In this document: piece by piece, positions 862 to 46,600 of the stretch
How positions within the stretch are numbered: position 1 is the stretch's first letter
How the letters are laid out: each line of letters opens with the position of its first letter
DNA from: Amphiura filiformis
Taxonomy: Eukaryota; Echinodermata; Ophiuroidea; Amphilepidida; Amphiuridae
DNA: 64,000 bases
Assembly (NCBI RefSeq): GCF_039555335.1
Contig: NC_092628.1
Coordinates: forward strand, 67,956,292-68,020,291
Direction of reading: 5' to 3'
Notes under the pieces: generated by a model
Database searches by the model: none
The model's input: the letters and a program-made list of their open reading frames with translations, nothing else
Told to the model about the DNA's origin: nothing
Program-made: the position numbers and the translations under genes

Positions 862-936
862 CTTACAGATGATGCTCTTCACCATCTAGGAGCATATAGC
901 AAAAACATAACAACTCTCAATCTCCAACAGTGTAAT
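862..936 (+). CDS. FBXL20: FBXL exon: LRR segment LTDDALHHLG
   Basis: The acceptor follows a TTGTTGTACAG tract and the donor is GTAAGT. The exon has 25 codons in phase 0 and encodes LTDDALHHLGAY...LNLQQCN, matching the FBXL2/20 repeat LEDEAL..IG..C...TLNLQ.C. It is internal; upstream exons are outside the window. Confidence 0.85.
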
Positions 937-3900
937 GTAAGTACCTGCTACCATATTTTCTTTATAGATGGACTATTGCTTGTTCTACATGTACTAACTT
1001 AAACTTCATTTAAAGTTAAGGTCACAGTGTCATGTGACCGTATTTTGGCATTATTATTTTAAGGAAAATAAAGACTTTGTAATAAAACGGGGCTTGTACA
1101 TCTTGGAAAAAATCTATCTAAGAATTACTTTATTACACCTGATAATTTAATTAAAGTTGTTGTAGTTAAAATGACAAATATCAATGTACACACTGTTTCA
1201 TTATCACAGAACAATGTACAACCCTGATGGGGGAGTGCAGTGTGATGAAAACAAATAAAACTGAAAGTTATTTTATATATATATATGTTCTTATTCTCTT
1301 TCTTCTACATGTTTTTAACAATATGTAATTCAACGTAATGTGGAAAGCAATGCCTTGACCACTGATATGAATACCTATTTCAAGAATAGTTTGATTAGGC
1401 TTTTACCACAACGCCAAAAAGTAAACCTGCATTACGAGTGTCATAGTTGACCTGTCTGGTCTATTTTTTAAGTGTCAAACAAAGTAAACAAAAGTATAGA
1501 CTTGAATTAATAATTTGTGATGCTTTTTGCAAGATGTCACAAGACCATTCTCAAAATAAAATATATTAATATTAATCTGCGATGTTATAAGGCCCACTGA
1601 TAACAAGCTGATCTAACTATAAATAATTCTGTATTTACTGAGAAGATTGTATTGTGTTTTAATTTGATTTTGTGCAGAATTTGACAGATGAAGGAATGCA
1701 GAAGCTAGCACGTGGTGCAAAACAACTACAGTCCCTGTGCCTGTCTGGCTGTACCCATCTTACAGACCAAACTCTTGTAGCACTTAGTAATTTTGTCATA
1801 AACTAAGGTATGAATACTGGGTTTTGCTTTTAACTTTTGCACAGGGATCTTAAAAAGGGAAGTAAAACATGTCTCCAAACAATAGCAGTTTGGGGAAACA
1901 GATTACAATGACTTCTGACAGTGAGGCGACGAAAAAAAGAAACCCTGTTCTACGGGCGGACGGACCTTTCAAGTAGGGTCGGTCGGCCTTTTTTTTTCTT
2001 TTTTTTTTTTTTTTTTTTTAAACAAAAAATCACCAAAATCTGTAAATAATTTGCAATTTGAGAATATACAAAAAAAAATTTGTTCCTGAAATTTCCGAAA
2101 TTTGGGTTGGCATTCATTTGTACAGGAAAAATTTTTTCCCCAATTTGTTCAACATCTGGGTCAGTCGGGGCGTAGAACATGGTTTTCATTTTTCGTCGCC
2201 TGATGGAGAAATTTATATCACATGCCAATATTATACCAAAAATAATTTCTCTGTGTGTGACACAATGTAATGTATGCAAAATGTATCTCAAAATTGCATT
2301 ATATATCGAGGTGCATCCAGTATATATTGTACACTGAATTGAGGAATTGCCATCTTTTGTCAAATGATTTTACAGAACACTTGAAGTAGCTGGATGTTCA
2401 CAATTTACAGATAATGGTTTTCAAGCATTAGCTAGGGTAAGTTTTTTCTATACAAAATGCTATATTATATGTGTGATGTTTTACAAGAAAATATTATAAA
2501 ATATTTTACCTGAGATGATTTAATAAGTACCGGTACACTTAGTATGGATAACGGATGACACTTGTATGTTCAGGAATAGATAGGACAATATAATCAGCAA
2601 TAATTGTTCCAAAAAGAGAGAATCGTTAGCAGGAAATTGAAAAAATAATTGTCTCAGCATGTGGTCAAAACTGATGGTGATTGCTCATAGCTCTATATGC
2701 AATTTCACCAATGTTTATTGAATTATGCAATATCTTTACCCTATATTTGGCAACTCAAGTTTAGTATCATATTGTATTTTTAATGTATTTTATAGTGTTT
2801 TTTTAAATGTGTTTATAAAATTTATGTACTGTGTAATTTTAGTTCTTTTATTTTGGTGTGTGTATAAGGGACCCCATCCAGTGGGCCTGCGTGCCTGTTC
2901 GGGGTTGCCCTTTTGCACCACACACCGCATTTTGAAAACTTCTAGCAGGAATCACAAACATCAGTTATCAGGCATGTAGGTGGAAATGAAGTAAATTGAT
3001 TGAAGTAATGGGGAGAATATGTCATGTCAGGGATAAAATTGAAGCACCCCAAAAAATGTCTTAAAAGATTATTATCATGGAATATCGTAATCTGCCTATG
3101 TCAATGTCATTGGCAAATTGCAGGATTGTATGAATGAAGAGCTGTATATAGTGTTGACATTGCCCTTCAGTGATGCTAAATAACAACTTGACTTAGTAGC
3201 TATTTGTGCTATATACTGCAGGGGCATATATACGGATATTGAAGGAAAATATTTAGAAAGTGTGTAACATTCTTTTTTCCCCTTCTACATTTGCATTCAT
3301 AGACATGTTCAGAATTGGAAAGAATGGACCTAGAAGAGTGTGTGTTGGTAAGTGTTTACTTGGTGTGATATAAGGTTGGCTTGCTGCTCGTTCTATGTAG
3401 CAGATGAACATTTATTGCATTTAATTGAATTTGTTTAAAATTTGAAAATATAAGTATTCACTCTCTGTAGCAGTTTATCATCTGCCATGCAAAATCCTGA
3501 ATAAAATTTAGATAAAGAAATTTGCAAGGTATTGTTTTTTTCTTCACACTTCATTTGGATTGTATGGTGATTTATATCAATGAAAAAGTTGTCAGTAAAA
3601 TACATTTGCTGACCTTTTCAGCAGCTGTTCACCAATCATATATACCGTGTTGCTCTTACTTGATATAATGTATTGAATACACATGGTGTCCACTGAGTAG
3701 TAGAATAAGTGTTCAAATTGCCAGAAATTGATTGGTTGAAGCTATTTTGATGTTCGTGCATGATCAGTTTTTCATAAAATCCTGAAAAGGTCTGTAAGAG
3801 AGGTTACTGTTTAAGTTTGAAGGTTAGAGCTAGGAGAGAAACACAAATGCATCTTCTTAGTGGTCTGGGCCTAATGTTGTGCTGCTCATTAGTAAGATTT

Positions 3901-6900
3901 CCCTAACGTTCAAAAGTATCATGTTATGGGCACATTCAGAAGCAAATTTTCACGAAAATAACATATTGTAGACCAGCATGACATTACGCTGATCAGTTGT
4001 GGTTTGTGTACTTAAGGGGGTACTACACCCCTGGCCAATTTTGTGCCTATTTTTGCATTTTGCTAAAAAATTATAGCGGATTGGTGACAAGTACGATATG
4101 TATATTATAGGGGCAAGGACTGCAACTACTGCACTGGACATTTTATTTCAGCACAGACAACAGTTGTGGAGTTACAGTCAAAAATGAGGGAAACCAATAT
4201 TTGATCAATAAATCAATAACTACTTGCCTTGAGTTGCTGAATTTTCAGTGCAGTAGTTGTAGTCTTTGCCCCTATAATATACATATCTTACTTGTCACCA
4301 ATGAGCTATAATTTTTGAGAAAAATGCTAAAATAGGCACAAAATTGGCCAGGGGTGTAGTACCCCCTTAATCAAGTTGTTTTATGATATACATAAATTTG
4401 TTTCCTTCAGATTACTGATGCAGCTTTAAGTCATTTGGGTATTGGCTGTCCCAAAATGGAAAAGTTGGTGAGTAAATATAATCATGTCCAAATCCTGTAG
4501 CTACTGATAAGGCCCAAGTCTTTTGGCATGCATGTGTGTTGTTGTCACAAGAAAGTGGGAAATATGAAGCTGATAGATTTTTTTTCTGAGAACTCGCAGA
4601 AAATGATGGACTTATAAGTGACAATTCTGTGTAGACTATGCAAATAATGTGAGTGGATCACAGTATTTTCACCCTAATGAGATGTTAAAGTAAAAAAAAC
4701 CCAGTTCAAATCAACATTTATTTTCATCTCTGGATAACACATAATTCATCAGTAACTTTGGTGGATGCACATGGGTATGAGGACAGGGATATAACCAAGG
4801 GCTGTCCCCCCCCAAAAAAAAGGACACCAAAAAACTCTTCATTTAAACAGATATATCAGGCTATTTCATTTGAAATCCATGCCCCCCCCCCCCATATGGA
4901 AGACATGACCTTAACCTGCCACACAGAGATTGTGAATTTCAAATGGAGTTACCTGAATGGGCGACTCCATTTAAAATCTACACCCCTGTAAAGGATAGGA
5001 GATTAAGGGCACGTCATCCAAAGGTGTATGGATTTCAACTAGAATATCCCTATTTTTTTAATATTTTTACAACATGGCATAACTGGGCATTAATAGCAGA
5101 GACAAAAAAAAATCATTGTGAAGCTGTTGACGAGGAAGCACCCAGAAAGCGATTAACCTCCCTGCTGACAATTTAAGCTATAAAGGTAGCATCCATTCTC
5201 ACATAAATACGCCTTTGTATCAAGTACTTCTCAAGTTGCCTGCTCTCAAGTTGATCAGAAAGTGTTTATTGGTGCTGGCGGTTCATTTAACACCATGTTC
5301 CTTTTTTCACAGAGCTTATCACACTGTGAACTGATCACAGATGAAGGAATACGTCACATCGGTACAAGCGCATGTGCTACAGAACAACTTCAAGTCATTG
5401 AGTTAGACAATTGTCCGCTTATCACGGATGCCTCTTTGGAACATCTAACAGGCTGCCAGAGCTTACAACGTATTGAATTATATGACTGTCAACTAATAAC
5501 AAGAGCTGGCATCAGGAGACTACGGGTAAGTCTATACTACAAGTGGTAATTAATGCTATTACAAGTCTAATTACACGGCCATTAAAAAAATGAATGGGAA
5601 ATTTTTAACAATTTCAATTTTCCTGTTGATAGGAAAATAGTACATTGGATTACAAATCATATTTATATTTAAGAAATAAAGGGTAATGCATTATCCTTTA
5701 CACGCAAATAATGTGTCGAGGCAGTAAAAGCGTAAATAATGGGTGAGGCGGCCGAACCCATTATTTAAACGTTTTACTGCCGAGGACTTTTATTTATGTA
5801 AAGGATAATGCTGCACCTTTATTTCTATTCTATTTTCAGAAAATAGTGCGATTTAAAGATAATTTAAAGAGAAAATATCATTTTTTGTTTATATTTATTT
5901 TAAGTTGTTTACTTCAAGGTGGAGCGCGTACGTGTAAGTGACAGTGTTACGGCGCTTGACCCATTATTGCAGAATAATGGGCTCTCACGTGACGCGTTTC
6001 AACAAATCACAGTGCGCCATTTTGAATAATGGGTCGAGGGGGTAATAGAATTCAATATACAATGTATAGGGTCCACAGCTTATAAGTTCCCTCTAAAACT
6101 TTTCAAAATAAGAATAAAATTTTACGAATTGTAAAAATGTAAAAAGGTATGTATAACCCTATTTGTTTTACACATGTGAACCAATTTATAGCTTCATACA
6201 TCATTGCATTCAGTCACAGTGGTTAATTGTGTAAGAAAAGAGGCTGTTTTAAAAGTTGCACCTGTGTCCATAGCAGTCAGGTTTTCTTAAAAAAACACAT
6301 GAATAGACCTGGTCTGAGAGTTGACTCCTATGGACTCAGATGCAACTTTTAACACTGTTTAAAACAGTCTCTTTTTTTTACATCATGAAGCATTGTGTCT
6401 AAACGCAAAGACGTGTGATGCTATAATTTGGTCCATCTGTTTAAAACACATAAGGCTACCATACCTTTTTACGTGTTTGCATTTCATCAAATATTTATTT
6501 AAAAAAGTATTTAGGGGAAAATTGATAAGTTGTGGACCCTATATTTAATATATATAGTAAACTTTGACTTGTTTTACTATAGCAGGTGTAGCCAAACCTG
6601 AGTAAATACAAGTTTCACTTTAGGTGCTTCAAGTGATGCCACTGATATCTCGGTTCATCTATATATGTGGGACTGTCATGGGGTTGGAGCATTTATATCA
6701 AAAAGGCAACCCTTGGCCAGTTGTGCAATAGCTATTTCCACCATGCTTGGGCAAATTGAAAGCTGCATTGGAGAAGTTACATGTGATGTTGGCAGGGTCT
6801 TAGCTAGAAATTGAGGTTTGCCCGTCATTTGAATAAAATTGCCTGTTCTTATTTGACCTTCAAAACATTTACCAGCCTTCTACAGCCCATTCAAAGAGTT

Positions 6901-7679
6901 CAAATATGTGTTGCTATGACCTTATTTTTGCAAATCTGGTTTACTAAAAAGGTCAGTAGCCTTCTCAATACTAACAATTATAATACAGCATCTGTCATAG
7001 GTATTAATTTTTGCCTGTTCCATGAGCAAACTTCCCGTCTAAGATGACGGGCAGATGGGTGGCTACCTGAGACTCTGGATGTTGGGCAAATTGGAAGCTA
7101 ACATTTACATATAGGGAAAAAAGTGAACTAAAACGTAGGAATTTTGGTAAGGCTATTAATTTGTGTAAATTTTCTTATAATGCACCGTGACCCTGTTTCT
7201 ACCATGGAATTTTCTTATTTTATTTACCTATTTTATTTTGTTATATATATTTTCATTTATTCTCCTCTGCAGGGCCAACTTCCTGATGTCAAAGTTCACG
7301 CATACTTTGCTCCGGTCACACCACCTCCCTCCGTAGGCGGAGGTCGGCCACGTTATTGTCGCTGTTGCACAATCCTATAATGCGTTACCCCAAGTGCCAA
7401 TATTTGCCTTGCTTGTCTCTATGTCTGTCCATATGTCTGTCTGTCCATCATCCAGTTTATTTTTTAATATGATATGGCCTGTATTTCATACCAATTATTG
7501 GGGGGTTACCATTTTTTGTCTTTATTTATTTCATTGCTTTCTTTTTATATGTTACTTATTCTCCTCTGCAGGGCCAACTTCCTGATGTCATTGTTCATGC
7601 ATACTTTGCGCCAGTCACACCACCTCGCATCCCAGGCGGAGGTCGAACACGTTATTGTCGCTGTTGTACAGTGCTGTAA
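862..7679 (+). CDS. FBXL20: FBXL2/FBXL20-like F-box LRR protein, 3' part of gene
   Basis: The exons seen are 862-936, 1678-1807, 2376-2436, 3303-3347, 4411-4467, 5313-5525, then either 7273-7380 or 7572-7679. They encode consecutive cysteine-containing leucine-rich repeats with the family signature (LTDDALHHLG, LEVAGCSQFTDNGF, LERMDLEECV, ITDASLEHL, IELYDCQLITRAG) and a C-terminal tail HAYFAPVTPPPSVGG ending in a CaaX box. This order matches vertebrate FBXL2/FBXL20, in which the F-box binds SKP1, the LRR region picks the substrate, and the prenyl group anchors the SCF ubiquitin ligase to membranes. The F-box and first repeats lie upstream of this window. Vertebrates have two paralogs, so the symbol is approximate. 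One frame break (missing base, 1791-1794) and a duplicated last exon are described separately. The gene converges on CEP70. Confidence 0.9.
1678..1807 (+). CDS. FBXL20: FBXL exon with a one-base frame break
   Basis: The exon runs from acceptor TTTTGTGCAG to donor GTATGA. It reads NLTDEGMQKLARGAKQLQ, then SLCLSGCTHLTDQTLVALSNF. It then hits an in-frame TAA two codons before the donor. Adding one T to the TTTT run at 1791-1794 turns the end into SNFCHKLR, which joins in phase to TLEVAGC in the next exon, exactly as the family requires. The exon is 130 nt here, while the phase of its neighbours requires 131 nt. Confidence 0.85.
1791..1794 (+). other. Likely single-base deletion in a T run within FBXL exon
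   Basis: Read as given, the frame ends at a TAA just before the donor. One more T in this run restores both the LRR sequence and the splice phase. It could be a sequencing error in a homopolymer or a real null allele; the window alone cannot decide. Confidence 0.7.
1924..2201. repeat. MITE-like element, TIR GGCGACGAAAAA
   Basis: The left end reads GGCGACGAAAAAAAGAAACC followed by TGTTCTACG. The right end reads CGTAGAACATGGTTTTCATT followed by TTTCGTCGCC, its imperfect reverse complement. A long T/A tract lies inside. It sits within an FBXL intron, and the reading frames across it are not genes. Confidence 0.7.
2376..2436 (+). CDS. FBXL20: FBXL exon: LRR segment LEVAGCSQFTDNGF
   Basis: The acceptor is GATTTTACAG and the donor GTAAGT. 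The first base completes the arginine codon of the previous exon (once that exon's frame is corrected), followed by TLEVAGCSQFTDNGFQALAR. This matches the vertebrate ILEVARCSQLTDVGF..LAR segment. Confidence 0.88.
3303..3347 (+). CDS. FBXL20: FBXL short exon: TCSELERMDLEECVL
   Basis: This is a 15-codon phase-0 exon between a pyrimidine-rich TTTGCATTCATAG acceptor and a GTAAGT donor. It encodes TCSELERMDLEECVL, corresponding to the NCHELEKMDLEECVQ segment of FBXL2/20. Confidence 0.88.
4012..4370. repeat. TTAA-flanked MITE, TIR GGGGGTACTACACCCCT, copy 1
   Basis: TTAA bounds both ends. The left end reads GGGGGTACTACACCCCTGG followed by CCAATTTT, and the right end is its reverse complement. Related copies lie at 18132-18409 and 47752-48115. 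A TTAA target duplication is typical of piggyBac-class transposition; no transposase is present. Confidence 0.8.
4411..4467 (+). CDS. FBXL20: FBXL exon: ITDAALSHLGIGCPKMEKL
   Basis: This 19-codon phase-0 exon follows a strong acceptor (TTTGTTTCCTTCAG) and precedes a GTGAGT donor. It encodes ITDAALSHLGIGCPKMEKL, matching ITDATLIQLSIHCPRLQVL of FBXL20. Confidence 0.88.
5313..5525 (+). CDS. FBXL20: FBXL exon: last LRRs
   Basis: This 71-codon phase-0 exon begins SLSHCELITDEGIRHIG, continues QVIELDNCPLITDASLEHL and ends IELYDCQLITRAGIRRLR. It is close to identical to FBXL2/20 over this stretch and is the best preserved exon in the window. The acceptor is TTTTTTCACAG and the donor GTAAGT. It can splice in frame to either of the two terminal exons, since both begin GGCCAACTT in phase 0. 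Confidence 0.93.
5672..5826. repeat. Palindromic element in FBXL intron
   Basis: AGAAATAAAGGGTAATGCAT followed by TATCCTTTAC is mirrored by GTAAAGGATAATGCTGCACC followed by TTTATTTCT. The inner parts (GGCAGTAAAAGCGTAAATAA and AAACGTTTTACTGCC) also pair. Further AATAATGGG-type sequence follows to about 6040. No coding content. Confidence 0.65.
6065..6543. repeat. MITE-like element, TIR TATAGGGTCCACAGCTTAT
   Basis: The outer ends TATAGGGTCCACAGCTTATAAG (left) and ATAAGTTGTGGACCCTATA (right) are inverted. Nested inside is a second inverted pair around GAGGCTGTTTTAAAAGTTGC and GCAACTTTTAACACTGTTT. It lies within the last FBXL intron. Confidence 0.7.
7273..7380 (+). CDS. FBXL20: FBXL terminal exon A, CaaX box CTIL
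   Basis: GQLPDVKVHAYFAPVTPP continues as PSVGGGRPRYCRCCTIL and ends at a TAA stop. It matches the FBXL20 tail (LPNIKVHAYFAPVTPPPSVG...CRCCIIL). The last four residues CTIL form a CaaX box; leucine at X is known to favour geranylgeranylation, which targets FBXL2-type ligases to membranes. No AATAAA or ATTAAA lies between this stop and exon B, so transcripts ending with A may share the downstream poly(A) site. Confidence 0.92.
   Translation, partial: GQLPDVKVHAYFAPVTPPPSVGGGRPRYCRCCTIL
7572..7679 (+). CDS. FBXL20: FBXL terminal exon B, CaaX box CTVL
   Basis: This is a second intact copy of the last exon. It begins GQLPDVIVHAYFAPVTPPRI, continues PGGGRTRYCRCCTVL and ends with TAA. It has the same length (108 nt), phase and acceptor tract as exon A. 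It differs at K/I, PSV/RIP, P/T and I/V, while the CRCC motif and a leucine-ending CaaX box are kept. It may be an alternative last exon giving a second isoform; expression is not shown by the sequence. Confidence 0.88.
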   Translation, partial: GQLPDVIVHAYFAPVTPPRIPGGGRTRYCRCCTVL

Positions 7680-9982
7680 TGTGTTACCCCAAGTGCCACT
7701 ATTTGCCTTGCTTTTCTCTCTGTCTATCCTTACGTCTGATGTCTGTCAACCAGTTTATCGTTATTTATTTTGATGTCTTGTATTTCATGACATATAGCAC
7801 CATAATTGTAGAACCCTCAATGACCATATATTCAATGAGCAACAAATGTATTCTTTGCGAGTGCATAACAGAGGTGAAACTACAGTTAAGGATTCGTAAC
7901 GTGCATGTTAACACAAGCAATTTATCTCAAGATCATGTCAAATTCAAATTAGAATAAACTGCTTGAATGCCATGCCACATATTAATGGATCCTTTTGGCT
8001 AGTGGCAGAACAAAAACTTAAGACAACCTGAAAAAAAAATATCATAATGGGAGGTGGTCAGGTCATGTGACATGACAATCAATACCAAATGGCAATCAAG
8101 GAGTAGGAAATGGATGAGAGAAAGATAACTGGAGGATGAAAGGATGACACCATCTGACAGGAGAAGTGCAACAGAAATGGATGCTACTTGAAAATGGCTT
8201 TTTATTGCTATACTAGGGGTTGCCAAGCTGTGGATCACAACACTGCTGAATGGAATGAAGTTGATCATGTTTGTGGTTATCCTTTGTATAAAAGAGTCTG
8301 TAATTAGCCTAATACAGAAATTTTCTATTGAAGAACTATATTTAGCTTTATTTCGTAAGCTGCTTAATTCCTCAATGGAGTCTTCACACTAGTCTAAATT
8401 ATGACTATTTTACACCAAGGATACACCCAAGTTTGGTATGGTCAATAGTAAACCGACTTTCAAGAAGTGGGATTGTGTTACAAAAATGAACACATGTACT
8501 CTATTTTGTTCAACTAGTAATAGGCGAGACACAAATTATATATTGATTTAGAATGACATACAAACCGTTGGGTACAGCACCCATGCAGAGTTCCCATGTG
8601 TATTAGTGACCGGCGAGATCTTTGTAAATTTACTGGAGCATTAGTTGGGACTCTGTTGATGTGTGCATTAGCAAAAACCAAATACTTTTTGTCTATTACC
8701 AGTTGAACAAAGTATAAGGGTGGGTCAATCTTAAAAATCCTGCAATTGCAGGCTTTGAAATAATTTGTCCAAAACATAATTCAAAGCAGTATGTAGTTCT
8801 TCCAAAGAAAATATTTCATTTTCTACAATTCTAGACCACAGAGTGCATGAGAAACTAACTGGATATGCTGTTGGTGCAAATGTTCAGAGAGGATGGGCGA
8901 AAATCCAAGGTACTATCCAGGATGGAGACCCTTGAAATAAAATCAGTAAATGCTACACATCTCTCTATTCATGCATGAGTAATTTTGGCTACTGAAGTAG
9001 ATGTAGTGCATAATTGGCCAATTTTATGTATTCTCTTGGCATAGAAGATGCATGTTCGTGTGGCTTTAGGTAGAGCTTTGAAAGATCCTCATGTAAATGT
9101 GGTAAGGGAGATATTCAAAGAAGATATTCATAGCTCCCATCAGATGGTTGCCTTTAGCATATTGATGTGTACAAGTTCCATTGTGTACAAGAGACCCCTA
9201 CATTGTTATTAGTGGAGCTCTACTCTGTGTGCATACAAGTTCCCTGAAAACTCAGATTTGGGTATATCTTCAAGTAAGCCTAACCAGGGTTAGCCTAGTA
9301 TCAAGATATAGGCCTACAGCTTATGGTATAAAGCTTACAATGCCTCAATGGAGTCTTGACAATAGGCCAATGTCGGGTATGCTTTCATGAAGGATACACC
9401 CATATTGTATACTTTTGTCACACTGATGCAATGGTCGGTTCAGTAGTGTGGAATGCTTTGAATCTCTTCCTGGATTCCTGTGATGCACATGTGAAAAAAA
9501 ACCCTAGATATGGTTTTTACTCTGATCATACCATATGGGAGATGGTATCTAATGTCTAGATATGTACACATAAATCGCCCTTGAATAACTTGATCAAAAT
9601 GTCATCACTAGTTCTATCATAAATAGCCAACACCACATAATGTCCATAAATTACCACAATTCGCTTCCTGTGACATAGGATGGTCCTATACTCTGTACTA
9701 TTTGGATAGGCTTGTTAAACCTTCAACTTTCATCATGATTTGTACAAATGCAACTTATTTATTTTAGTGTATAGTACTTGTCTAATCAATTCCTCTGATG
9801 TCTTGAAATCTTTTGATCTTCTAACACAGTGTGCTAATAGTGTTTTATTTAATTTGGATCTCGTTTCCAATACATTGTCACATTATTTATTTTGCAAGTG
9901 GTAAATAGTTGCTGACAAGTTTTAAAACCAGTTTGGTTTAATACAATGCCCAAAGTTGGTAGGCTTAAATCATGGTTATGTT
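7680..9982. other. FBXL 3' UTR and intergenic DNA
   Basis: The first part is probably 3' UTR. A stretch at about 8020-8275 reads like a heavily decayed tail of a non-LTR retrotransposon in the plus direction (TAEWNEVDH near its end), but stops are frequent and the call is weak. A CAATGGAGTCTT motif occurs near 8375 and again near 9345. No supported gene. Confidence 0.4.
7953..7958 (+). promoter_or_regulatory. Candidate poly(A) signal for FBXL
   Basis: An AATAAA hexamer lies 273 nt past the exon B stop. It is the first canonical signal I find downstream of either terminal exon. Confidence 0.45.
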
Positions 9983-15420: not shown

Positions 15421-16290
15421 TTATGCCTCCACCGCGAGGCATACTGTTTTTGCAATGTCCGAGCTTCCGAGCTTCCGTCCGTCCGTCCGTCCGGATGCTG
15501 TATCTCGGGCATGGATGGGCGGATTGACTTCAGATTTTCAGGATAGGTGGGTCATGGTCAAAAACTCTGGATACTTTTTTTTTGGGTGGGGTTCAAGGTC
15601 ATATACTGAGGTCAAATGTCATTTGAGGTCAAATTACAAAAACTGTCGTATGGGCATGAAACTTGGTGGGTACAGTCAACATTTAGAGCCAAATTTTTGG
15701 AAGGTCATTTTGGGGTCATCCGGGGTCACCAAGGGGTCATCTGAGGTCAAATTACTAAAAATTGTCATATGGGCTTGAAACTTGGTGGGTACAGTCAACA
15801 TTTAGAGCAAAATTTCTGGACGGTCATTTCGGGGTCATCCGGGGTCACCAAGGGGTCATCTGAGGTCAAATTACTAAAATTAGTCGTATGGGCTTGAAAC
15901 TTGGTGGGTACAGTCAACATTTAGAGCAAAATTTCTGGAAGGTCATTTTGGGGTCATCCGGGGTCACCAAGGGGTCATCTTAGGTCAAATTAATAAAATT
16001 GGTTGTATGGGCTTGAAACTTGGTGGTTACAGACAACATTTAGAGCCAAATTTTTGGAAGGTCATTTCGGGGTCACCAAGGGGTCATCTGAGGTCAAATT
16101 AATAAAATTGGTCGTATGGGCATGAAACTTGGTGGGTACACTCAACATTTAGAGCCAAATTTTTAGAAGGTCATTTCAGGGTCTTCTGGGGTCACCAAGG
16201 GGTCATTGCAAGGTCATTTTGGGGTCATCCTGGTGGAGGCATCCCATTTGACGCCTTGCGTCGAAAACCGCGACGTTTCTAGTTTAATCT
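15421..16290 (+). repeat. Repetitive element with 119-bp tandem array rich in GGTCA
   Basis: The element is bounded by ATGCCTCCACCGCGAGGCAT at the left and TGGTGGAGGCATCC near 16231. Between them are five to six tandem units. The landmark CGGGGTCACC occurs at 15720, 15840 and 15959, a period of about 119 bp; later units carry small deletions. Each full unit contains CTTGAAACTTGGTGGGTACA and several GGTCA pentamers. A CCGTCCGTCCGTCCGTCC run lies near 15477-15494. Confidence 0.8.
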
Positions 16291-31600: not shown

Positions 31601-34600
31601 ACATGATGTGCGATCGCAGGGTAGCAAAATTCATGGTTTTTAATGATGTTATAATCCTTGTTATTTTTTGTTATTATTTTGATGTTCAAAATAAGAATCA
31701 CAAAATGTTCTGGTATGTTTGAACGGGGTTCATTCATATATTTTCATGACTAAAACGGTTGTTTATTATGCCCTTGGGCATAAACACATGATTCATAACC
31801 TCATTAATAAACGCGATGTGTGCGATCCAATTACATTTAGTTATTTGTGAAAATGCGAACGCAAATCGAGGTCATTAATATCTCACAATTGACAGCAAAA
31901 TGCGTAATTGTTCCAATGTCGCACACAATTGACCGGCGTTTGCGTGTTGTTGGCTGCCATATTTGGATTGCGCGGTACCATATTTGCACAGATTGTGATA
32001 CGCACTTTTGTTATTGGTCGTCATGTTTTAGCCTGATCGATTTTGGGAAAGGGAAGATGTCAAAATCATCTTTTATCAACTTTTGAGCACAATTTTGTGT
32101 TATTTTGTAAGGTGAAGTGACGGTTATGAATGAGGTTAATAACTTTGCATCGGTAATATGTCGGGCATTGTGAAAAATCTAAACATTTTGCTTTGGACCT
32201 CGGAATATCCCTCAGTTCCAAAGGCAAAATGTTTATAGATTTTTCACAATGCCCTCCAAATAACCGATGCGCAGTTATTAACCTCTAAATAATAAACACA
32301 TGAAACACATGAATACCGTAACCACCCGGGTATAAGCCCACCTTCAGGTATAAGCCCACCCCCTATTTTTCAAAACATTCTGGGAACAAGGGTGCACTCG
32401 GCTATAAGCCCAGTACTAAAATTTGCTTTTCTCTCACATTTAAAGGGGCATTTCGTGATCCACAGCCTCATCCCCTCACTTTTCCCAAAAAAAGTTCAGA
32501 TTTTTACACCACTGGATACCTCTGGCTACATAATGTTTATGTAGGCCTACCAAATATTTCTTGCAGATTAATTCGTTTAGCAAAAATATCGCCAAATTTG
32601 AATTTCGTTCTGGTGCACCAGAACGAAATTACAACACATTGTCTATGGAGCAGTGTAATACACATAATCATGCATAACTCGCAAACGCAAAATCGGAATC
32701 AACTGAAATTTTGGAAATAAGCTTTTTTCGTTGGATATCTACTGAAAAATGTCATAAAAAGAGGATGCTAGGATCACAAAATCCTCCTTTAAGAACAAAT
32801 AAAAAAAAATATCAGTTGATAATTAACATTCCACACTTAGAATTTTAAGAAATTGACTAAGATGATAGAAATTACTGGTACATTGGGCATATATACAAAT
32901 AGGGATGATTTTTCTTGTTACTAAATTCAAGTACTAGCCCCTTCCCCGGTTATAAGCCCACCCCCATTTTTGAAGTGAAATCTGCCATCTAGGGGGGGAC
33001 TGGGGGTGGGCTTATACCCGAGTGGTTACGGTAATAACAAATCATAAAACACATGAATAATAACAAATCATAAACTAGTTTAGGGACACCTTAAAAATCT
33101 GTTTTGTTTCGCAAAATACAGTAAGCCTCAAAGAAATAATGTCACCAGTTATTAGAACTAAATAGTACTGATTAAGAGCCATTATGCGGACGGGATTGCC
33201 GAAAACGACTTGTGCCCCCTGGCATCCGGCCCGTTACGCCCCTCATGACCCCCGACTCCCGAGCTAAGCCAAGTTTCATATCTTGACCGTGAATCGATAT
33301 TCTATTATATATCAGTAGGCCTACGTCCCGGTACGCTTGTTCATTTTCTGCATGGCTGTTCCTGTTATGAACTTACGCCCCTCTGAAATCAAGCGCATGA
33401 AAAACCCTTGGCTAACTTAGGGCTCTTTTTGAAATTCCCTTACACAGGAAGGTGTGCGCCTTCCTGCAGCTTTCCTGTGCTAGCCTTCTTTTGTTAAAAT
33501 CCTGTGTGATTATAGCACTGCAATTAGCCACTTCACTGATTTAAATTAGGAGCGAGCTTTCCTGACCGAGCTTTCCTAAGGCGCGCGCGTAGCGAGGGGA
33601 ATCCTGCCTTCTTTCTGTGTGAAAACGTGGTAGGGTATTTCAATATGAGCCCTTAGAGGCTTATATTTGTCCCTATTGTTTGATATATACATACATGTAC
33701 AATCATAAAACCTACATACACTACACCATAATAATATCTGGACTTTCTTGTCTACTTTGCCCACAAGGCACTGGAAATAGTAGGAGAATCAATCATCACT
33801 GAGCCTCCATGAAAGTCGGAATACGGAAAACGCACATGCAGCGTGACATCTTTAATTCCTGTACAACCTACATAAATATCTTATTGCATATATTTATAGA
33901 AGATCCCTGGATGATGATGCCATATTTTGTATTTTCACAGACTAAATCCAGTTCAATTTCTCTATTGAGGAGCAAGCTACAACTTTGGTCACAAGATGGC
34001 TGACAGTGAAATTCCATTAAGCCATCTTCACCAGCTAAAATCCGATATCAAGATGTCATCAAGTCAATCACAAGAGGCCAGCTGTAGCTCATCAAAAGGC
34101 ATGGATAATAGTAAGGTTACCATTAACAAAGCTAGCACATCTGAAATTATTATTCATCTTCATACTGACCAGGAACAAGTGAAGGCTAGGCGTAAACACA
34201 TGAGTACAGGGACTGGTGTTACTTGTATCAAGGAGAACAGTCAGTCGTGTCATGTTTGTGTGTACTGTGGGGAAAGTTTTGGAAGGATCAAGAGTTTTAA
34301 TTGCCATAAAAGACCTAATCCACCAGAATTGCTCAGTGATGATTGTGAGGCAGTGCAGTTAAATATAGGTGATGATGCTGGTATGACAAATCCACAGAAA
34401 TGTTGGGACTGTGGCTATGTAGGCGACGGACTGAATGAATTGATGAAGCACAAACAAACAGAACATCCAAATACGGTGAAATTTACTTGCAAATTTTGTG
34501 GACAGGTATTTGCAGAAAGGAAAAAACTTGACCAACATAAAAAGACAGTACATCAGAGTGAAACTCAAGTGGATAAGGGCAGGAAGAAAGTTGTAGTAAG

Positions 34601-37600
34601 TTCAAAAAAGGATGCATCACTCAAGATGAAGAAAAGGAGTTTGAAAGAGAAAATTGATGTGTTAGATTGGCATCGTGCAAATGGTAGTAAACCAAGCTTG
34701 ACTGCAGCAAAATGGGGCTGTAATAGAAAGACAATAGCACACTGGGATAAAAACTATGACTTGTATGCTTCACATTTAAGTGCTATTAATGAGAGGAAAA
34801 GGGGCAAGACATTGGATGATGATGATGATGATGATGATAATGATGATAATAAAGGCACATACCCTCGTGGTCCAACCAAAAGACAATCTTGGACTGTAGA
34901 GGAAAAAGTAGAAATTGTTGACTGGTTCCGCAGTGCTGGAAGAAATACATGTATGACAGTATCTACCTGGGGATGTGACAGAAAGTCATTACGTCAATGG
35001 GATAGCAAATATGAACAATTGAAAAAGTTGAGCGAGACGGATAATAAAATGAAGAATAAGAGGAAGTTACATGGTGGGCATCCTATGCTGAGCCAAGAGC
35101 TAGATAGCGAAGTATTATGTTATTTTAAAACTCAATATGATAAAGGTCACATTATGCCATTTACTGAGATCTCGGTAAAAGCTCAAGAAACTGCCGAACG
35201 CCTGGGGATCGAAGGTTTCAAAGCTTCAAGTGGATGGATAAAACGATGGAAAATTAGGAATGGCATCACTGTGGGAATAAGGAAGAAAAAGGGATTAGAA
35301 GAGGAGCCTGATTATACTGATATTCCATTGACAGTGCCTGGGGTCAGTAGTGATGCCCCAACACAGGTTCCAATGTGGTTGACACCAAGATAACAGCAAT
35401 GATTTATATAGAATGAAGCATCCTTGAGCCAGTAGCATCTACATGTGATACATGTGCGATCAAAGGTGGTGTATCTGTATGACCCAGTCACTTACCGTGG
35501 CATCACATGTTACAGAGTACAGATGCACTGCCTTAAATCATGCTTGTATCACTAACGGACGCTACTGTCTTGAGAAAGCCAAATGGACTACAGTTCTACA
35601 TGTACTACTTGCTTATTTTTAAATTATGTAAGCTGTATAGTGTATAATTACAACTTTAATTCCACCATGTGCACATTCCCTGAAAGATTAATTAAAAAAC
35701 ACCACATTTCTATCATAGTACATAACCCGATTAATTTACCATCATTGGTACAATTAGTGTGTACACATCTGTAGCACCTGACTATAAAATGGTATTTAAA
35801 CAAAGTCTGAATCCAATTTAGTATCTATAAAGAGTATTGGTTACAAATTCATTGATTTGATATGTGAATGACCCAGATTTACAGTGCTAATGCACATCAC
35901 ATGAGCCAGAACAGTTTTTTCAAGTTGAAAGTAACGCCATGTTGGATAGATTTCACAGTGGCAGATTCGAATTGTGCTAACGGTAAACCTAATCCCCTGG
36001 GGCATATACATGTACGCATGCATAGAAGGGAATTTGTTAGTAAGCTTGTGACGCAACCGCGTAAACACATTGATTCGAATCTGCCACTGCGAAATTCAAC
36101 ATGGCGTTACTCTCAACATGAGACGAGACACATTATAAGGCAATGTTATTGATTTATCGTACTGGGTTTTTGGTCATTTCCTAAAAAATTGCAGTGGGCA
36201 AATTATACTGTAAAATAGTTATAAAAACAGAAAATCTGTTCCAACTGACAGCAGGGAACCAAAGGATGGATCCAAAGGGATACAACAGTGTCACACTAAC
36301 AATGAATAAAATTTAAAACTGGGAAAATAATGACACAACATCCAATGGGGGAATAACCCAAAAGGTACAAAGTTAAAAAACCTGACATTTCAAAAAGACA
36401 AATTTTTTATTAGAAAGCAGGTCTCTAAGTTACATTTGTATACCGTTTGTGTTATTCCCCCACTGGATGTTGTGTCATATTTTCCCTGTTTTTAATTGTA
36501 ATTTAATAGCTGTCAAATTTATAACTTGGAGCTTAATAAGAAACATATATTATGCATTATTTTTGGCTCCAGGATTGTGTCATGCAATGCACCCACCAAA
36601 TAACCCATCAATGATGATGAACAGGTGATGAATCATGATGAAGTATCTACCAAAGTTTTTTCATCCATCGCTGAAAGCACTATGTCCACACTATTGCTGG
36701 AGATGTGGCAGAGTCTATGATAGCGTGGACCTTCTTCAACAACACATCAAAAGTCATCAGAAACGCTGGGCAATAAATGCACATTTCAAGTCAAAATACC
36801 TCCACACAGTAAGTTTGAAACAAACACTAGCAAAGGAAGCTGCTAGGATTAAAATCAAAACTGAATCAACGCCAGTTGTTCGACGGACGATAAGAGAAAG
36901 GAGCAAGATAAAGAAAGAGACTCCTTCAAAAGATGAAGAGCGCCATTATTGTCATTGTGGTAAAAGTTACACAAGAAAAGAGCATCTTAAAATCCACAAG
37001 AGAAAGCACACAGGAGATGCCCCTTATAAGTGTGATCTTTGCGATCGGGGGTTCTACTACAGCGGCGACTTGAAAAAACATAGACGTTCTCACACAGGAG
37101 AGAGACCTTATGTGTAAATTTTGCAAACACGGGTTCGCGCAAAGTTCAGCGCTTCGAGATCATGAACGAATGCACACTGGAGAAAAACCTTTTCAATGCG
37201 GTTTGTGCGAGGCAAGATTTACGTCAAGTGGAAATGTGCGCTGGCATATGAAACAGCACCACCCCGAGGAAGGTGATAAACCGCATAAATGTTCAGTGTG
37301 TGAGAAGGCATTTATCAGAAAGAGTCACTTAAAAAATCATGAAAAGACTCACACCAAAGAGAAACCCTGGGTTTGTAAGTATTGCGGTATGGGATTGGGA
37401 AGTAAACCTGCTTTAGCGTATCATGAGAAGTGTCATACACGAAACCCAAGTGAAGAAGAAGGTATGCCTCAGTGCCTAGTATGCTTGAAGAAATTTCGTT
37501 TAAGAAGTGCTCTCAAGGTTCATATGCGAATACATACTGGTGAACGCCCATTTAAATGTGAAGAATGTGGAAAGACGTTCACACAGAGCGCACAACTAAA

Positions 37601-40600
37601 GAAACATGAAACAATTCACTCAGGTAGAAGAGATTTCCAGTGCTCCCAATGTGAAAAGACATTTGCTCGTAAAGATGCTCTGCGAGATCATCAAGTAACG
37701 CATTCTAGTGAGCGTCCTTATGAATGTGAAGTGTGTCATAAGACGTTTGCACGTAGCGATGGAGTACGTATGCACATGCGCACACACACCGGGTAACGTC
37801 CCTACAAGTGCACACTTTGCGACAAAACCTTTTCTCAAAGTAGTCAGTTGACGACGCATCGCAGGACACACACAAAAGAACGCCTATATACGTGTCAAAT
37901 CTGCTTCAAAACGTACCCTTTAAAAGCCACATTACGTGATCACATGCGCACCCATACAGATGAAAGGCCTTTTTCATGTGATTTCCCAGGATGTGATAAA
38001 AGTTTTCGGGTTTCATCGCATCTCAAAGTTCACCTCATGCGTCATATGGGTATCAAAAACCACAAGTGCAGTGAGTGTGGGGCAAGTTTTGCCCGTCCAA
38101 ATGAGTTGACTAAACACTTCAGAATTCACAGTGGAGAAAAACCATATGAATGTCCACACTGTGGCAGAGGTTTTACACAAAGTAGTCAGATGAAACAGCA
38201 TGCAAGATTACACACTGGAAACCTTCCTTATGCTTGCTATGTATGCGACAAGAGATTTAATCAGAAAGGTCAACTAACAAGTCACTTGAAAATGCATGAA
38301 AAACATGAAAAAGCAAGACTAGAAGAGGAGAAAGTGTATCAGAGTGAGGCTGATCCGGAATGGTTGATGAAAAATGGAATGAGCTTATTAGGGCCAAAGT
38401 GTTCTCTGAATGGCAATTCGAAAGTAGATAAAACTGCTATTGGAGGTGATGTTAAACCAACTTTGCCTCAACGTGGTGAACAGTGCTTGATTCCAGCAGC
38501 ATCAGATTTGGGAAATAATATCACAATATCACACAAAATAATAGGTCAAATGTTGCTCAAGCCTTCAGATTTTAGTCAATCATTTAGAGTTAATATATCT
38601 CTTGCAAATGCTGAATCACGTAAGTCAAATCATGGCACAAGTAATACTTTGGAGGAGGTTATTAAACAAGAACCTCAAGACCTGTTGGAAGTTGGTGAAA
38701 GTGAGTTGTCAAAAGCGGTTGCACCTGCTCCAAGTGAGAGTGTTGTTGGTAAAATGGCAGCATCGCCATCAGATTTAGGTTCTCTAATAAAGTCAACACC
38801 AGATAGTTTTCTTGCAATGCGTCAGATCATGATGGCTGCTCAGATGGCACAGGTTAAAAAGTCATGAAATATTCTCAGGAGCATATGGTTTTGAACCAGC
38901 TTACATGTATATTCTCCATAGCATTGTACTCGCATTACATCAGTTTCAGTCATATCATATACAGTGTATCCTTTTATGTTTCGTTCGTCGTTTGCATCAC
39001 ACATGTACAATTGTACATAATGTAGTCTAGTGGATCCACATTGACTACATTATGTACATGTATGTTGAGATTTCACAAAACTTGTCATCACATAGTGACA
39101 ATAAAACTGTGGTATTTGATCTACATAATTATGTGAGAAGTAAAATTTTACTAATGTATGTTAATATTTTGGAAATAACTTCTCGAATGCATACTTCTAA
39201 TACATGTAGACACATGTAATGGCAAGTCTATGTTTTCTTATTGTTTTATTCTTGATAAATTTACAATCAACATCTGTCACTATGTGAATTTTAGTGGCTG
39301 TTCACATTAAGTTAAACTTCTTGTTAAAAATCTTAAATCTGTGAAAGCCATCATTTTAATTTTGGTTATACTTTGTAATGTTTTTGATACGCTATTATCT
39401 TTTAGTTGCCATTCAAGACAATAGATTTGTCATTTTCTACTCTTGAACAATATATAGCACTACTTTTTGGGATTAAAAATATTATTCTGTTTTGCCAAAT
39501 GAAACAAAGCTAAATCATAATCCTTTAGTTATTTTTACCTGGCATTAAAGCATTTTTTGCTAATTTTGGGATAAGAGCCAAAAACAATGCATTTTTAGAG
39601 TGTTTTTTGTAAATGACAATCAAACCCAAAGACTTGCACCCAGACTAATTTCATGTTATGCATTCTAAATTTTGGGAAGACACATTTACTAATATCTTTT
39701 ATAAATTTGACTGAAAATGACTGAAATTATAAGAAATCATGCAAAATTGCATGTTTTTGGCCCATTTCCCCCCAAACTGCAGTGCAAACTTATTAAAATT
39801 AGACTTTTATTGCCAGTTAGAACTAAAGGATTAAGATATAGCTATGTTTCATTTCTCAAAACAGGATATTTTCTTACTTAAAAAAATGAGTGAGTTTTTC
39901 TGGACTTGGGAGTAATCTTCTACAAGTGGGCTGTTGCTTTCACAGGATTTTGTTGTTTGTTTTCAAAAATATTTGTGTTGTGATTATTTTATTTTTCTGT
40001 GTTGAAAAAGAATGAATATTTTTGATATGATATGCTTTAAATTAAAATACTGTACACTACAGTAAGCCAAAAAATTAAGGTACCAGTTATGGTCACCCCC
40101 TGTATAGCCTAAACAAAGACAGATATGTCATAATTGGAACCAGCAGCCAATAGCTGCATCTTTTATCTCAAATTTAAGACCTCATTTGTTGAAATTGTTC
40201 TAGAAATAAAAACATGACGATCAGAAAACCCAAAGAAGATGCCAATTTAAAAGTTGCAGTTTGCTCCATTGCAATTGCCTATTGATTTGTACACAAAGCA
40301 TTCACGAAATGCTTCCATTGATTCGCACGTTATAACTAGCGTCATGCTTTCATTGATTAGAACACAAAAGTGCAACTTTTGATTTAGTTTCTTCAGTAGG
40401 TTTTAGATCACCGTTTCTTTAATTCTAAACCAATTTCAACAAAAATAAGGTCTTACATCAGAGCTAAAGAGTACAGGTATTTAAATTTTGACAAACTTGT
40501 CTTTATTTAGGATATACAGGGATGAACACAACTGGTACCTTAATTCTTTGGCTTATTGTATATAAACTCCTCAACAAAAGTTTGGAAAGTTTATTCAAGC

Positions 40601-43600: not shown

Positions 43601-46600
43601 CAGTACCAATGAGTGTGAGGGGGTGTATGTGTGTGTGGAGGAAGTTGACACATGATTGCACTCTGTGCACACCGTTCATTGTCTAAAATCTAAATTAATC
43701 ATGGAAAAACAACTGGGCATCAAGTTGCAATAACAGCGGCTTTTTCTGCTTTGTCTATTCCACACACCACCATGTTACATAATTATTTACTATTTGGATC
43801 ATATGGTAAATGAGCCAATACTTTTCTAATATGAATATTTTTCGCTAGTAAATTTGGTAAATGGCCAGAGTAATACCATATTAACACCTGCAATATCTTT
43901 CCAGACAGTTGTGGAATATTTAATCACAGTATGATTAAACAATAGTTAGTATATTAAGAACAACGTTACAGTGTTGAACCTGAGATGGTGAACTGTGCAT
44001 GTTTTGGAAAAGCTGTTTTTAATTTCAACATTGTTTTGCATTGAAAATGTCCAGTATGGTTACATAATGAATAATATTCACTCCCATAACCCTAACTGGA
44101 CACAAGGTTTTTTTGCTATTGGAAGGAAAAGAAGAAATGAAAAAGGAGAGAAGATGAAGAAAGAAGTCATGTGGTACCCCCGGGATTCGAACCTCGGACC
44201 CCTCGCATGCTAGTGATGCCACACAGCCTGACGCAGGAGATCACCAGCCTGTAGCCACACAGGTGATGCTTGCCTGGCCAGCAATTCCCTGGGTATATAT
44301 GATTTTGGCTGATTGCAGTGGTTTAAATAGTGAGATTTAGTGAGACCTGGTTCAGTTAGGGTTAAGGGATCGGATAGTAATATTTGCACAGTATTTTTTG
44401 TGGGACATGAGAGCACATCAGACACATCGAATTGCATTGTGAATAAAATTTATGCACAGGACTGTTAAATATCAAAAATTAAAAAAAAATTTTTTTTAAA
44501 ATAATTTGTGACCTGCTACCACGAAATCAGCGTAAAGTCGCAAGGTGTTAGTCACTCAATACGCCCTGGCTACTGCATTGGTGTTCACTCACCTGTTAAA
44601 GCCACTAAGTATGTCTGTATGTCCTTTGTGAATGGGGGCACAATGGGCCATTCACGATTCACGAAGGATAATACTAATGGTTTTTACAGGTGGCAGCAAA
44701 CAATGAACATCAACTTAGTCAGACCAAATATCTCGAAAATACCACCTCAACAAAATGAGTATAAAGTCGCAGCGATTTTATGCCGATTTTGTGGTAGCAG
44801 GTCACATTTGCCATAAAATTTATATTATATTGCAAATGAAATCAGAAGGAAAAGAATGCAATGTGTCTGATGTGCTCTCATGTTCCACAAAAATACTGTG
44901 CAAATGTTGCTATCCAATTTTTTGGGTAACTTATTAGAATGAAAACATTAATTTGTTTACCTGCTGCATCTGTTGATAGTGAATTGGATTAACCTTTTTT
45001 TCTTATCGGAGTCTGGCCATGGAGCTGGTGTGTGCTTGCTTCGATGCCTGGCATGTTGTCTAGATGTGGGTATAAGAGCAATAAAGGATTAATAATTGAC
45101 AAGGCTAAAGTAAAATATGTTAGAAATGAAGCTGGTAAATAAAGAGCAAGAAAATAAGTCAACTGCAGAATTACTTTGAATTCAGATGTACATATTTCAA
45201 TATGATCTTTGAAATATGTGCTTGGTCCAACTAGTAGTGATAATGACACATGACAATGATGACACCCAAAAAAATAAACAAGCAAATAAACAAGCAAAAA
45301 ACAACAAAATCAAACAAACAAATCCTCCCTCCAAAAAACCCCAAACAAAATAATAATTAAAGTGAGTACCTTGCATGCCACTTGCGGAGAACTTCAATCT
45401 GTTCTTCAGCTTTGCCGATAATTCTGTCTATTTTTCTCATGTTCCTTGTAGAACTGCAATTTACAAATAATTTCAGAAAATACATATGATCAAAAAACAA
45501 GTTCTATAGCACTTTTTATTTTATGTCTAATCCCTAATTGCAAACCTTATGTGCAGCTGGGGTTTATGCAACTGGTAAATTAAATTATGCAACAGATTGA
45601 GTATAGAAACTAGAAAGTCGTATACATGTTTAGCATATTTAGGAGTGCTCTCAGATAATTTCTCAGCGCTTAGAACAAATATTGTTACATGTCGTTCTAA
45701 AGACATTTGGTGAAAAAAAGAAAAAAAAGGAAGCTAAATAACAAAATGGTGCTAGTTTTAAGTATAGACTAAGAGGGTCCAAAATCATGTTGTCCATGCG
45801 TAATTCAATGGGGTGTGTCTGATTGTGATTACCAAAAGTACTGTATTGTATTAGTCATACATGTATATATATTCAGGCATGAGACTGCACCTTCATTTTA
45901 AAAAAGGTCCTGGATCCCCAGGCGTATTCACCGGCATAATGTATAACACATTGCAAAGTACACATACACACAAATCTACGCAGCTAACATGAAAATGCAC
46001 GAAATGTATTGAACAAGCGAAAGTTGGCAAAGTGGGAAAATTACACAACAAAAATTAGTTTTTAAATTACCACTTTTACCATTATGTAGGGTCAATTTGC
46101 TGTATAAGTAGTGATGTAACAGGATTATTTACCATGGGTTTACACTATTTTTGAATGTATTGCCCTGCACTATATTAGCAGAATACATTCATCACCTGTG
46201 TATGATAGATGACTAAAATACCGCTCTTTTCAAAGACACTAATCTTACAGGTGTGGGCGATCAGTATGATGTGAAATTTCTATGATCCAGGTCTTTATTA
46301 CTGTACGGCATAAGGTGACATCCCGCTATCTCTAAGGTCCGCTATCTCTAAGGTTCGCTATCTCTAAGGTTCGCTATCACTAACGTGTAAAGTCTATGGA
46401 GATCAGAATCCCGCTATCTCTAATAGAGAAAAGGGTTCGCTATACCTAAAAAAAGGTCCGCTACTTCTAAGGTTCGATATCACTAATTTAGAATAAGGTT
46501 CGCTAGTTCTAAGGTTCGATATCACTAATTATAAATAAGGTTTGCTATCACTAATTTAAAATAAGGTTCGCTATCACTAATTTTGAATAAGGTCCGCTTT

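Follow-up and report, generated by a model that had tools for sequence, protein, structure and literature searches.

The 64,000-nucleotide (nt) stretch analysed here, referred to as the window, comes from the ophiuroid Amphiura filiformis (RefSeq assembly GCF_039555335.1, contig NC_092628.1, positions 67,956,292 to 68,020,291, forward strand). It starts inside an FBXL2/FBXL20-like gene, which seems to be an animal gene encoding a membrane-anchored ubiquitin-ligase component, and the terminal coding exon of this gene, which bears its prenylation signal, is tandemly duplicated. The two copies, A and B, are best described as a single terminal exon that offers a choice of two 3′ splice sites, and sequence comparison favours a copy B that is used. 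The chances are about evenly balanced that the whole explanation is correct, namely a duplication, 3′ splice-site choice and a shared 3′ end, with A as the main terminus and B as a retained alternative.

Anatomy of the duplicated terminal exon

Copy A (7273..7380, plus strand, as are the other parts of this gene given below) reads GQLPDVKVHAYFAPVTPPPSVGGGRPRYCRCCTIL before its stop codon, and copy B (7572..7679) reads GQLPDVIVHAYFAPVTPPRIPGGGRTRYCRCCTVL. Each is 108 nt long and in phase 0, the spacing is 299 nt, and the 16-nt acceptors (7257..7272 and 7556..7571) are identical at 16/16 positions. The coding parts agree at 92/108 positions without insertion or deletion, leaving 16 that differ. 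These direct copies share a 183-nt ungapped core, 87% identical, and the gapped duplicate matches at 223/277 positions with an E-value of 2e-70, which rules out chance similarity. Joined in phase 0 to the donor at 5525|GT, copy A closes the protein with RRLRGQLPDVKVHAYFAPVTPPPSVGGGRPRYCRCCTIL and copy B closes it with RRLRGQLPDVIVHAYFAPVTPPRIPGGGRTRYCRCCTVL, so that the last residues before the stop are CRCCTIL or CRCCTVL and the CaaX box ends in leucine in both. The tandem duplication is real, and the shared acceptor, length, phase, CRCC motif, stop and leucine-ending CaaX box are as a preliminary description of the locus had reported. Haplotype misassembly was also rejected, since a difference at 16/108 coding positions, with more in the outer flanks, is far above what we would expect between alleles. 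For a third copy of the duplicated segment, the window yielded only short nucleotide matches (E at least 0.05) and weak protein matches resembling leucine-rich repeats (LRRs).

The copies differ by six synonymous and six nonsynonymous codon changes (K7I, P19R, S20I, V21P, P26T and I34V). Nonsynonymous and synonymous divergence (dN and dS) are 0.129 and 0.293 by the NG86 method, and 0.171 and 0.349 by LWL85. The claim that the exons had been kept while flanking DNA drifted is valid only past the first 59 nt of the 3′ untranslated region (UTR). Directly after the stops, 7381..7439 and 7680..7738 are identical at 52/59 positions. The following UTR stretch, 45/56 identical and interrupted by 11 gap columns (4 of these at the ends), retains clear homology (alignment z 7.5). 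On the other side, the 100 nt upstream of 7257 match their counterpart before copy B no better than shuffles (z 0.2); the BLAST alignment of the duplicate nevertheless reaches 7215. Within the UTRs, 7394-7400 after copy A reads GTGCCAA and 7693-7699 after copy B reads GTGCCAC. We take the former to be the complement of the miR-96 seed, maybe by chance.

A scan of 7273-8100 for 12 poly(A)-like hexamers returned a single match, AATAAA at 7953..7958, the presumed shared poly(A) signal; this is the one canonical signal that had been placed after copy B. None of the 12 hexamers occurs in 7273-7571, where no search for a non-hexamer site was made, so the copies do not each have a poly(A) hexamer of their own. 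No GTRAG donor lies between the start of copy A and the start of copy B. With one poly(A) signal and no such donor between the copies, the two last exons first proposed are in anatomy better read as two 3′ splice sites of a common terminal exon than as independent exons. Joining of A to B looks unlikely, and the reading in which copy A is an internal exon that continues into B was rejected on account of the in-frame stop of copy A and the lack of a GTRAG donor. On this evidence, copy A would be possible only as a terminal exon running through copy B to the common 3′ end, and copy B would be reachable only by skipping the copy A acceptor.

In the proposed explanation, about 299 bp comprising the acceptor, the last coding exon and the early 3′UTR were duplicated head to tail, which would have placed two competing 3′ splice sites before one common poly(A) site. 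We infer that both are spliced. Isoform A would join the donor at 5525 to 7273 and carry the entire copy B inside its 3′UTR, while isoform B would join the same donor to 7572, with copy A removed as part of the intron. In each product the LRR domain would be closed by an extra β-strand, followed by an Ala-Tyr-Phe (AYF) loop, a linker rich in proline and glycine, and a CaaX box of the geranylgeranylation type. Copy A would be the ancestral-like and probably main terminus. Copy B would be a retained alternative that kept the loop and the anchor and changed a strand residue (Lys to Ile) and the linker. A selector-type RNA structure was considered and rejected: folds of four stretches, namely both copies and their UTRs, gave z values of −0.59, 0.14, 0.90 and −0.07. 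None of the Rfam families attained its gathering score anywhere in the window.

Gene identity and the C-terminal tail

Within the window the gene consists of LRR and tail exons, and its 5′ part, where the N-terminal F-box is expected, would lie before window base 1. Six LRR exons with AG/GT borders precede the duplicated exon: e1 (862..936, 75 nt, phase 0), e2 (1678..1807, 130 nt), e3 (2376..2436, 61 nt), e4 (3303..3347, 45 nt), e5 (4411..4467, 57 nt) and the last shared exon e6 (5313..5525, 213 nt), which ends in phase 0 at the donor 5526 GTAAGT. The best solved match of the 160-residue protein running from e3 to copy A is human FBXL2 (6o60_C; E 1.5e-89, query residues 2-160). The protein of e1 and e2 aligns to the same chain with E 2.6e-35. 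The C-terminal LRRs are collinear with those of FBXL2, and the Pfam families LRR_6, LRR_4 and LRR_1 score above cut-off. Like human FBXL2 (6O60 chain C), the predicted protein has an LRR tail, an AYF loop and a CRCC-x-x-L end. Relatives of the last LRR exon were encoded by 5/62 candidate stretches of a prokaryote collection, all bacterial, at an uninformative 36-41% identity, and by 0/10 candidates of a viral collection.

The introns of this gene hold several repeats. In the last intron, 6055-6553 forms nested inverted repeats with the look of a miniature inverted-repeat transposable element (MITE), with TATAGGGTCCACAGCTTAT and ATAAGTTGTGGACCCTATA in the outer arms; the inner arms lie at 6116/6460 and 6246/6322. 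A second palindrome-rich block of the same intron, 5679-6038, repeats AATAATGGGT and its complement. Further upstream, an intron segment at 4015-4370 lies, as judged by eye, between inverted copies of a GGGGGTACTACACCCCTGGCCAATTTTGTGCC-like stretch, and is an apparent MITE-type element.

Among mammalian proteins, FBXL2 is a substrate of geranylgeranyltransferase type III (GGTase-III) and Fbxl20 is its paralogue (excerpts of PMC9141697 and PMC7729025). According to excerpts of PMC9141697, geranylgeranylation of human FBXL2 by GGTase-III depends on the C-terminal CVIL, and the pocket clamped by PTAR1 is built from the loop A398-Y399-F400 together with the additional C-terminal strand; density for the FBXL2 C-terminus was not found, according to this review. 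Alignment of copy A to FBXL2 places the AYF loop, the linker and the CaaX box in the duplicated exon. The AYF loop, and CRCC with a leucine-ending CaaX box, are present in both copies, with identical loop and anchor class. Both tails carry a predicted anchor of the geranylgeranylation type. Two features were absent from the preliminary description: a break in the reading frame of the exon at 1678-1807, which is weighed below, and the K7I change. The latter appears to correspond to FBXL2 Lys395, by inferred numbering, and so to a residue that precedes the loop by three positions. We offer it as a speculative and rather doubtful suggestion that 3′ splice-site choice switches two prenylation modules of a Skp1–Cullin–F-box (SCF) ligase subunit, with the Lys-to-Ile change and the re-made linker tuning GGTase-III docking or membrane retention, and hence the site of the ligase.

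Constraint on the copies and competing explanations

Neutral drift of both copies was simulated with three transition weights and with either copy as the start. At most six amino-acid changes from 16 substitutions were obtained with P 0.0065-0.014, and the additional retention of the open frame, AYF and CRCC..CaaX lowered this to P 0.0005-0.0017. Free drift of both copies is unlikely. This rejection is silent on which copy is constrained, and much of the signal could come from a pair in which only A is constrained and B is neutral. Simulations of a neutral B beside a constrained A, started from copy A and run with a single transition weight (2), address this case. A strict set of features, consisting of HAYFAPVTPP, CRCC..CaaX, the whole acceptor and the open frame, with motifs picked after the data were seen, was kept by a neutral B with P 0.005, 0.0014, 0.0003 and 0.00003 at 9, 11, 13 and 16 substitutions, the last value being about 1 trial in 30,000. 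Together with the acceptor identical at 16/16 positions, the 183-nt core free of indels, and the intact HAYFAPVTPP and CRCC..L, these values favour a copy B that may be used.

Other results weigh against function of copy B, and most of them suit an alternative that we regard as possible rather than probable: constraint on copy B is relaxed and this duplicate is seldom or never used, the first acceptor A is taken, and B is in effect 3′UTR. With A constrained, a neutral B shows six or fewer amino-acid changes with P 0.61, 0.26, 0.08 and 0.01 at 9, 11, 13 and 16 substitutions, so that the observed count is ordinary for 9-13 substitutions (P 0.61-0.08). A neutral B also keeps the features fixed in advance from the literature (acceptor AG, open frame, stop, AYF and a C-x-[ILVM]-L end) with P 0.18, 0.12, 0.08 and 0.05 at the same four counts. 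Human FBXL2 polarises codons 7, 21 and 34, and all three changes fall on B, as in a relaxed copy; copy A matches the FBXL2 tail at 25/35 residues and copy B at 22/35. The dN/dS of B would be about 0.9 with synonymous changes split evenly between the copies, or about 0.44 with all of them on B. Residues shared by A and FBXL2 are not significantly avoided (3/25 changed vs 3/10 elsewhere, P 0.32). The coding changes had been described as concentrated before CRCC, and 4/6 do lie within an 8-codon window, but random placement gives the same in 19% of trials and the clustering is not significant (P 0.19). The first 59 nt past the stop are as similar as the exon itself (7/59 vs 16/108 changed, Fisher P 0.65); constraint or homogenisation may have acted on this UTR stretch too, or something other than coding constraint may account for part of the similarity of the core. 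Against a relaxed B stand the identical acceptor, the ungapped core and the intact motifs already named, and the P of 0.005-0.0003 for the strict, post hoc motif combination at 9-13 substitutions. The earlier proposal of two functional exons is partly supported: joint free drift is rejected and function of B is plausible, whereas a neutral B still keeps the minimal set with P 0.05-0.18.

The reading frame of the gene raises a separate difficulty for the proposed explanation, since it is not open through the LRR exons as assembled. Exon e2, at 130 nt, is 1 nt short, and its assembled frame stops at ALSNFVIN, while another frame of e2 reads FCHKL and continues into e3. Should this be a real null allele, both last exons would be moot in this haplotype. 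That the assembled gene is a recent pseudogene or null allele, with neither last exon reached in frame, is improbable in our judgement: the remaining exons are open and match FBXL2, and the deficit falls within or close to a short stretch of T (AATTTTG). Sequencing and assembly errors are common at such runs of one base, and the missing nucleotide is probably an assembly error. Still harder to credit, and very improbable, is a copy B that is the real terminal exon beside a dead copy A. The AATAAA directly follows B, 273 nt past its last base, as this would predict; A, however, is the better conserved copy by the FBXL2 comparison and, with its terminal exon extended, can end at that poly(A) site too.

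Should copy B be used, as the proposed explanation holds, KRAS and CDC42 would be joined by an E3-ligase subunit among the proteins in which splicing of alternative terminal exons selects the lipid-anchored tail. The variable residues of this subunit would adjoin a known prenyltransferase docking loop, and the two tails would make a testable pair for the contribution of linker and strand beyond the CaaX box. If copy B is unused, the locus would hold an ordinary decaying exon duplicate.

Known systems and other features of the window

Terminal exons that serve as alternatives are a kind already known from KRAS 4A/4B, CDC42 and Drosophila pip, and homologous and lipid-bearing cases are among them. 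In OAS1, with its p42 and p46 forms, the choice of splice acceptor sets whether a CaaX box is present at the C-terminus; one form has the box and the other lacks it, depending on the allele, whereas here both predicted forms carry one. KRAS exons 4A and 4B resemble the present copies in being two homologous alternative terminal coding exons with a membrane-targeting CaaX tail, but 4A arose when NRAS exon 4 was inserted into intron 3 of KRAS rather than by local tandem duplication (excerpts of the preprint PMC9882654). KRAS is moreover a small GTPase, whereas this gene is LRR/F-box-like and its copies have one common predicted 3′ end. Exons 6 and 7 of CDC42 are likewise alternative last exons with lipid-related C-termini. 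The CDC42 isoforms differ in their 3′UTRs and in lipid modification, prenyl vs prenyl plus palmitoyl (excerpts of PMC6411841), whereas the two copies described here share one CaaX class.

In the tandemly duplicated terminal exons of Drosophila pip and the 3′ variable regions of PGRP-LC, a single member is selected from a tandem set of homologous 3′ regions, as is proposed here. Unlike the present case, pip has eight clusters and is cited as a UTR case, and PGRP-LC choice is made through competing RNA structures (excerpts of PMC9013439), whereas our folds were no better than shuffles. Swaps of homologous exons can involve 3′ exons, according to a supplementary-figure legend of PMC4465641. A literature search, not exhaustive, turned up no duplicated last exon of FBXL2 or FBXL20, and no publication on the present case turned up in it. 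Neither "CaaX" nor "prenyl" is present in the FBXL20 (SCRAPPER) paper PMC3044740.

Elsewhere in the window, a tandem array at 15618-16206 contains about five copies of a 119-bp unit. A large tandem array of units like TAAGGTTCGCTATC occupies 46323-47391 and turns to the reverse-complement orientation from near 46912. By eye, reading frames on the plus strand at 36632-38867 are rich in C2H2 zinc-finger-like motifs, and a separate zinc-finger-like frame lies at 33969-35393.

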